A DNA stretch of 64,000 nt from Flavobacteriales bacterium. Its GTDB lineage: Bacteria; Bacteroidota; Bacteroidia; Flavobacteriales_F; PHOS-HE28. The notes under the pieces were generated by a model. It saw only the letters and a program-made list of their open reading frames with translations. It was not told the DNA's origin and ran no database searches. Each line of letters starts with the position of its first letter. Within the stretch, counting starts at the first letter, position 1. Below, one piece after another: positions 10,857 through 52,390 of this stretch. The stretch is from the NCBI GenBank assembly GCA_019638085.1, contig JAHBUL010000001.1, forward strand, positions 62,001 to 126,000, in the 5' to 3' direction. The position numbers were made by a program, and so were the translations under genes.

Positions 10857-10886
10857 AAAAAGGCCCCAGCTCCACGCTGAGGCCTT
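10857..10886 (-). terminator. Intrinsic terminator, duplicate copy after tRNA-Asn pseudo-copy
   Basis: On the minus strand an 11-bp stem (AAGGCC-T-CAGC paired with GCTG-G-GGCCTT) with loop GTGGA is followed by a short T run. It is identical to the terminator after the intact tRNA-Asn at 11307-11338. Confidence 0.8.
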
Positions 10887-10889
10887 TCG

Positions 10890-10987
10890 CTCCCCGGGCT
10901 GGACTTGCCCCGATATGTATCGGGGCAGCGACCCCTTGATCAACAGTCAGGTGCTCTAACCTCCCGACGGATTCGGGGATGTGCTAC
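10890..10987 (-). pseudogene. Degenerate tRNA-Asn copy with hairpin insertions in the T and D arms
   Basis: Bases 10857-10907 match 11309-11359 exactly over 51 bases, covering the terminator, acceptor 3' strand and part of the T arm. Anticodon-arm sequence with GTT is still recognisable at about 10932-10950 but has two changes that break an anticodon-stem pair. In the T arm the bases AACC are replaced by a 9-bp hairpin (GCCCCGATA / TATCGGGGC, 10907-10926). The D arm and 5' acceptor strand are replaced by sequence with another hairpin (CCCGA / TCGGG, 10963-10977). It cannot fold as a functional tRNA. Confidence 0.85.
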
Positions 10988-10998
10988 ACGAAGAAGGT

Positions 10999-11301
10999 TT
11001 AGGTCATTCTCTGATTTCGAAACCTCTGTAATTGATACTCTCTGTATTGATCTTCTTGGATCAGTCGCTTGATCACCGCAATGCTCTTCTGGGATTTGAT
11101 CCAGCGTTCCAATGCGCGGGCATGGGCCCGATCATGGCAAGCGACCACAAGCTGGATGCTCCAGTCGGTGGCAATGGCTGTGGCCGATCCGGGAAAAAGG
11201 TGGTCGTTGTGTTGTTGCGTACGAATGTTCGCATCAACGCTTTCCCCGATGTAGAAGCGGTTCGCTGTTTTGCTATGCAGGATGTAGAGGAAGTGCGGCA
11301 T
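10999..11301 (-). CDS. Small GIY-YIG nuclease-domain protein between duplicated tRNA-Asn segments
   Basis: 100-residue protein made of a single GIY-YIG fold, as in the UvrC/YhbQ-like superfamily. The two hallmark strands are LYILHSK (residues 5-11) and RFYIG (15-19), the expected catalytic Arg is near residue 27 (NIRTQQH), and ALERWIKSQ supplies the acidic residue. The start codon lies only 5 bases beyond the T run of the tRNA-Asn terminator, and the stop lies just before a broken copy of the same tRNA and terminator. It therefore sits inside a 452-base tandem-duplication unit. Its expression would need terminator read-through or a promoter within the terminator. Function is unknown; a mobility or homing role is inferred only from context. 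Confidence 0.85.
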   Translation of the reverse strand: MPHFLYILHSKTANRFYIGESVDANIRTQQHNDHLFPGSATAIATDWSIQLVVACHDRAHARALERWIKSQKSIAVIKRLIQEDQYREYQLQRFRNQRMT

Positions 11302-11306
11302 GTTGC

Positions 11307-11338
11307 AAAAAAAGGCCCCAGCTCCACGCTGAGGCCTT
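11307..11338 (-). terminator. Intrinsic terminator of tRNA-Asn
   Basis: Minus-strand hairpin with 11-bp arms AAGGCC-T-CAGC / GCTG-G-GGCCTT and loop GTGGA, followed by a run of seven T. It starts 3 bases after the tRNA 3' end. Confidence 0.85.
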
Positions 11339-11341
11339 TCG

Positions 11342-11415
11342 CTCCCCGGGCTGGACTTGAACCAGCGACCCCCTGATTAACAGTCAGGTGCTCTAACCAG
11401 CTGAGCTACCAGGGA
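11342..11415 (-). tRNA. tRNA-Asn (GTT)
   Basis: A 74-nt cloverleaf on the minus strand. The acceptor arms TCCCTGG/CCGGGGA pair over 7 bp with one G-T. D arm is GCTCAGCTGGTTAGAGC. The anticodon arm CCTGA-CTGTTAA-TCAGG reads anticodon GTT. The T arm contains GGTTCAAGTCC. CCA is not encoded. A broken duplicate lies about 450 bases downstream. Confidence 0.95.
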
Positions 11416-52312: not shown

Positions 52313-52313
52313 G

Positions 52314-52390
<77 letters not shown>

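Follow-up and report, generated by a model that had tools for sequence, protein, structure and literature searches.

Free-standing GIY-YIG homing endonucleases, exemplified by SegB of phages T4 and T6, are found in phage tRNA clusters (PMC13096335, PMC2988022). In phage T6, SegB drives the formation of 718-bp tandem repeats made up of tRNA-Tyr and a segB shortened at its C terminus; the 5′ end of the tRNA and the 3′ end of segB share microhomology (PMC13096335). Nuclease genes bracketed by short palindromes occur in the REP/RAYT (REPtron) systems, which have an HUH tyrosine transposase, a GTAG tag and no tRNA target. Integrative elements use a tRNA gene as their site and keep an intact tRNA, and engineered home-and-rescue drives are placed in an essential gene of which an intact copy is retained.

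Here, we analyzed a 64,000-nucleotide stretch of DNA from a Flavobacteriales bacterium (the window), in which a small GIY-YIG nuclease gene lies between an intact tRNA-Asn gene and an altered copy of it. The resemblance to SegB includes a GIY-YIG gene adjoining tRNA genes, tandem tRNA-plus-nuclease units and, as a counterpart to the microhomology between tRNA and nuclease ends, a nuclease stop codon that frequently overlaps the next tRNA copy in its D arm. In contrast to SegB, the elements described here reside on bacterial chromosomes, encode a single domain of 80 to 100 aa, carry palindromes in place of tRNA arms and fall into tRNA-specific clades, and their proteins lie outside the phage Seg families by sequence (no match in PHROG or by phage tblastn). 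By analogy of function, SegB is the closest precedent; the window element likely works like a SegB-type tRNA-linked nuclease, although it is not a member of that group by sequence or domain layout. It shares the bracketing palindromes with REPtrons, from which it differs in its GIY-YIG enzyme and tRNA target. Compared with tRNA-site integrative elements it has no integrase, palindromes take the place of its tRNA arms, and the break lies away from the 3′ end; unlike in a home-and-rescue drive, the retained tRNA copy is not recoded.

Architecture of the tRNA-Asn locus

All features of the locus lie on the minus strand of the window. An intact tRNA-Asn(gtt) at 11341–11415 (ARAGORN; Rfam RF00005, 69.7 bits) is followed by a terminator, T1, at 11309–11340, and by an ORF of 100 aa at 10999–11301 that encodes a single GIY-YIG domain (Pfam PF01541, E 4e-7) and starts 5 bases beyond the T run of T1. 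Next comes the second tRNA-Asn copy, in which the 18-nt palindrome H1, TCCCCGAATCCGTCGGGA (10962–10979), replaces the 5′ acceptor/D strand, tRNA positions 18–53 are preserved at 10926–10961 (94% identity to 11363–11398), the palindrome H2, CCCCGATACATATCGGGG (10908–10925), replaces tRNA positions 54–56 in the T loop, and positions 57–75 follow at 10889–10907. The unit closes with terminator T2 (10857–10888), whose 32 nt are identical to T1, and the two tRNA/terminator copies share 51 identical nt (10857–10907 and 11309–11359). ARAGORN called no second intact tRNA-Asn(gtt) at the locus beyond the one at 11341–11415. The initial annotation had described this order, the 51 identical bases, the nature and start of the ORF, and hairpins in the T and D arms of the second copy, and ARAGORN, Pfam and sequence comparison agreed with it on each of these points.

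H2 is a dispersed repeat, with 8 exact copies in the genome and 5 more with one base changed; the reversed control pattern of CCCCGATACATATCGGGG had no copies in the same genome. At four loci (L008, L009, L012 and L016, around position 1500), the 18-nt palindrome is nested in a second palindrome, TCCCG[...]TGTATCGGGA; the surrounding intergenic DNA has many short repeats, and it looks as though one palindrome had inserted into another. No HUH Y1 transposase was linked to the palindromes: the two Y1_Tnp genes of the genome (C1:301272 and C34:180580) are away from the locus, and a RAYT was rejected as the palindrome source. The 4.0-Mb window genome (G000) carries a second GIY-YIG element at the tRNA-Met gene before era (L003). 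A plain tRNA-Ala(ggc) without adjoining nuclease or altered copy lies at 52313–52387 of the window; in G006 and G031, related elements target this tRNA.

The GIY-YIG protein

Clade members are single-domain proteins of 80 to 100 aa. Membership in the GIY-YIG superfamily is indicated by a PF01541 score above the cut-off, the catalytic residues and a confidently predicted fold (pLDDT 93.4 for the window protein). Among 23 sequences, Tyr-6, Tyr-17, Gly-19, His-31 and Glu-65 are invariant and Arg-27 nearly so. The nearest solved proteins by both sequence and fold are UPF0213 and SLX1, with I-TevI more distant, and the nuclease is probably structure-selective in the manner of UPF0213/SLX1. SLX1 differs in being a housekeeping branched-DNA nuclease, and neither UPF0213 nor SLX1 is known to be tRNA-borne. 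The C-terminal DNA-binding region of the Seg type is absent from these short proteins, the window model ending in a helix. Values of dN/dS were 0.04–0.14 where estimable; the protein is under purifying selection.

No NCBIfam family matched the protein, and five members had no PHROG match at E 0.01. Phage (tblastn) and plasmid searches both returned no match, and carriage by phages or plasmids was rejected on this basis.

Recurrence at tRNA genes and clade specificity

The window genome and 44 congeners (45 genomes, referred to as the genus set) were searched with PF01541, and the small GIY-YIG genes were then inspected. Many of them directly adjoin tRNA genes. The initial annotation had suggested looking for GIY-YIG ORFs beside tRNA genes in related genomes, and such genes proved to be a single group in a tree of 70 ORFs, with 23 of its 24 members adjoining a tRNA. 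The linkage label requires 3 changes on this tree, compared with 20 when labels are shuffled. Within the group, subclades correspond to tRNA species across genomes (Met, Leu, Asn, Ala, Val and Pro).

Beyond the genus, the clade profile gave 24 loci at least 60 bits; 17 of these had a tRNA on the same strand no more than 300 nt away, Thr, Ser, Asp and Arg cases among them, and below 60 bits the figure was 1 of 6. Among the top Pfam-scoring small GIY-YIG genes outside the genus, taken as a control, 2 of 23 were near a tRNA, and the idea that GIY-YIG genes in general lie near tRNAs was rejected in favor of clade-specific linkage. Chance linkage, estimated from tRNA density, is about 0.6% per gene, a figure to be read with the related genes not being independent of one another. 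A scan of public genomes with the pattern D[RH]YYVGH[TA] yielded 32 loci. A tRNA was nearby in 22, and the rest mostly begin close to a contig end. Hosts include Bacteroidota, Balneolaceae, Ignavibacteria and Chlorobiota, among others, and isolates such as Marinirhabdus gelatinilytica and Kaistella palustris carry the arrangement. The Asn layout is found again at numerous tRNA loci, isolates included, and is beyond chance.

At L118 (G019:C15:72400–75500), the called tRNA-Ser(tga) contains the start of a GIY-YIG ORF from a different clade, which may have become associated with a tRNA independently.

Layout variants, junctions and palindromes

In the common layout, an intact tRNA and a terminator precede the GIY-YIG ORF, which is followed by a tRNA copy with a palindrome in place of its anticodon arm (for example, TCCCGCACGCAGTGCGGGA) and by a final terminator. 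This terminator is often the same as the first, and at several loci the two differ. The anticodon arm is the one most often replaced, and the D- and T-arm replacement in the window is the Asn form of this wider pattern. A 5′ tRNA remnant with its own palindrome lies upstream of the intact tRNA at several Pro (G016, G018, G025, G030), Ala (G006, G031) and Val (G043) loci. At Leu loci, the ORF comes before the intact tRNA, and palindromes (CCTGCCTGCCGGCAGGCAGG) occupy the D and T arms.

A table of split copies disclosed that the same tRNA is interrupted at the same position in different genomes: the junctions fall at tRNA positions 27|45 in Pro and Ala, ~27–30|44–47 in Val, 37|48 in Met and 53|57 in Asn. 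The 53|57 junction is common to both Asn elements of the genus (the other is L119 in G042), which carry different palindromes; palindrome sequences differ from element to element. In a hand-compiled list of 33 inserts, chosen for interrupting tRNA copies and not for palindromy, 32 had a stem of at least 6 bp, as compared with 4% of shuffles, and the mean stem was 8.1 bp versus 3.7 bp after shuffling.

Tandem repeats of the tRNA-plus-nuclease unit were found as arrays at L148, L155 and L095. In M. gelatinilytica, a single intact tRNA-Arg has five 5′ parts upstream and three GIY-plus-3′ units downstream, the first nuclease copy being truncated, and a Chitinophagaceae genome contains two whole cassettes in tandem. 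Strict nesting would leave as many 5′ as 3′ remnants; G041 (3 versus 1) and Marinirhabdus (5 versus 3) contradict it.

Two ARAGORN calls, tRNA-Phe(gaa) (L227:1730–1805) and tRNA-Leu(cag) (L062:1800–1873), are copies with a palindrome as anticodon arm and look like false tRNA annotations. Four tandem tRNA-Pro copies spaced by 122 nt, with at most 84% identity to the intact tRNA, occur near a contig end at G006:C281:22–450. Another small GIY-YIG gene, at L001 (G000:C23:2612–3439) and L065 (G013:C52), is bracketed by CGTC-type REPs (CGTCATGGCGGGCTTGACCCGCCATCC), and it is surrounded by every copy of this pattern in the two genomes (4 in G000, 5 in G013). Since CGTC REPs have been reported without a dedicated transposase (PMC3733652), GIY-YIG proteins are a candidate partner for them.

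Empty sites and comparison with a sister genome

The gap between tRNA-Met and era measures 54–126 nt in the listed genomes without the element and 603, 410 and 376 nt in G000, G016 and G003, respectively, where it holds a GIY-YIG gene with or without a tRNA copy. Presence at this site is patchy, with the gene in 3 genomes and absent from 15. At tRNA-Pro loci, some genomes display a plain promoter-tRNA order, and the intact tRNA is 100% identical with and without the element. A recoded rescue tRNA was rejected, given that tRNA-Pro is the same in filled and empty sites and the Asn arms are also unchanged. Other tRNA-Pro loci, which have no GIY-YIG gene now, carry a different leader (GAAATGCGGGACAAGG) beside the tRNA, read as the scar of a past insertion. 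At tRNA-Pro, -Asn and -Met loci of the genus (e.g., L174, L190, L196, L257), the tRNA gene, with or without an element, frequently shows an in-place inversion with respect to its conserved neighbors.

The sister genome G013 has the Asn element and lacks the Met element, the tRNA at its Met site being inverted. From T1 through T2, 7 of 457 positions distinguish the Asn elements of G000 and G013 (98.5% identity), with 27 ORF bases falling in a contig gap. The flanks are 79–91% identical, with 112 differences in 1266 positions of preA, 134 in 924 of pfkB and 22 in 104 of the upstream spacer. The difference rate of the element departs from that of preA at p 5e-9, an excess of identity that would fit recent transfer or conversion. 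The 452-base Asn unit lacks a clean empty-site comparison because G013, the only other genome with the preA neighbor, is filled as well, and in genomes other than these two a different gene lies downstream. In G013, the intact tRNA-Asn has the T-stem CCAAC, as in several relatives, and the second copy has CCAGC, so that the second copy is not simply derived from that gene. The duplicated segment thus usually, and not always, matches the host tRNA, a check that the initial annotation had proposed.

Proposed mechanism and alternative explanations

We lean, by a little, towards a selfish free-standing nuclease cassette that resides in tRNA genes and persists by breaking and duplicating its own tRNA gene. 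The GIY-YIG enzyme would nick or cut that gene at hairpin-forming arms, namely the T loop for Asn genes, the D or T arm for Leu genes, and the anticodon arm for Pro, Ala, Val and Arg genes. Repair by recombination with homologous tRNA copies would duplicate the locus and carry the nuclease gene along. Because the cell needs a working tRNA, selection would keep one intact copy, and the remaining copies would stay split, with a palindrome where the arm was broken. These split copies would flank the cassette and give homology for further rounds, producing tandem arrays, and the cassette could also have spread between lineages. The palindrome might have arisen as a scar of repair, act as an end that resists cutting or form the true terminus of the element. 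Several observations sit uneasily with this cassette reading: 5′ and 3′ remnant counts are not always equal, the protein has no DNA-binding domain of the kind homing enzymes use for site choice, similar palindromes also occur away from tRNAs and, as the intact tRNA is not recoded, nothing visible shields it from the enzyme.

Local tRNA gene duplications are common, and one alternative is an ordinary tandem duplication in which one copy decayed, with the GIY-YIG gene as a bystander. The clade- and tRNA-specific recurrence in many families and isolates, the fixed positions of the palindromes and the occurrence of other GIY-YIG clades away from tRNAs disfavor it, and we regard it as very improbable. 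Also disfavored, and hardly credible, is a degenerate integrative element with the tRNA 3′ end as attachment site. The 51-nt repeat does span the tRNA 3′ end and terminator, and the initial annotation had drawn this parallel; however, the sole ORF of the unit is the nuclease, with no integrase or 3′-end att repeats, the breaks are found in the anticodon, T or D arm, the junctions bear palindromes instead of identical att sites, and the terminators are unlike in several loci. That earlier proposal also spoke of a minimal mobile unit anchored at a tRNA and carrying one nuclease; as a class, this has good support from the recurrent tRNA linkage, the tRNA-specific clades, the presence or absence of the element at Met-era, where the empty site is clean, and the excess conservation relative to the flanks.

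A host-useful module, in which nuclease-driven changes in tRNA copies give a buffer against toxins that cleave tRNA or against phage systems, with the altered copies serving as decoys or regulators, would agree with the purifying selection on the nuclease and with the amplification of tRNA-Tyr by SegB, which defeats Septu (PMC13096335). We consider this improbable: there is usually one intact copy, presence is patchy (3 genomes with the gene at Met-era against 15 without), and the majority of copies are truncated, lack the anticodon arm and are thus unfit as extra tRNAs or anticodon decoys. Unlikely to a lesser degree is a system centered on the palindromes, in which the GIY-YIG protein recognizes TCCCG...CGGGA palindromes, as RAYT does REP, and transfers DNA with palindromic ends to targets that form hairpins, of which tRNA arms are one class. 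Palindromes at the 5′ and 3′ cassette ends in Pro, Ala, Val and Arg loci, the dispersal of the Asn palindrome, the second GIY-YIG clade bracketed by CGTC-type REPs and the SLX1-like fold all point this way, but across the genus TCCCGN{4,14}CGGGA shows no enrichment above its control, and the element palindromes differ in sequence. That TCCCG...CGGGA abundance tracks GIY-YIG number across the genus genomes was likewise unsupported, the counts by eye not following.

More tentatively than the cassette itself, we propose a separate selfish class, in which a lone structure-selective GIY-YIG enzyme with palindromic ends would insert into the hairpin arms of essential tRNA genes. Each insertion would bring or leave an intact copy of the broken tRNA, which would make the elements nestable, and each lineage would be tied to one tRNA species, across Bacteroidota and related phyla.

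Significance

We found no earlier description of the arrangement in the open-access literature; subscription papers and preprints lie outside this coverage, and its novelty is therefore provisional. Its recurrence at many different tRNA genes in Bacteroidota and neighboring groups suggests a class of selfish tRNA-bound elements that is apparently undescribed, and there is a fair chance that the tRNA-linked GIY-YIG element merits a class of its own. If the proposed reading is correct, nuclease elements of ~450 bp would reside in the tRNA genes of a major bacterial group, breaking an essential gene and yet coexisting with one intact copy of it. The SegB-type association of tRNA and nuclease would extend from phages to chromosomes, and the spurious tRNA predictions on altered copies would be explained. 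The elements would also allow a test of GIY-YIG action on palindromic DNA, including CGTC-type REPs, and would provide a mechanism for the duplication, and possibly the rearrangement, of tRNA genes.
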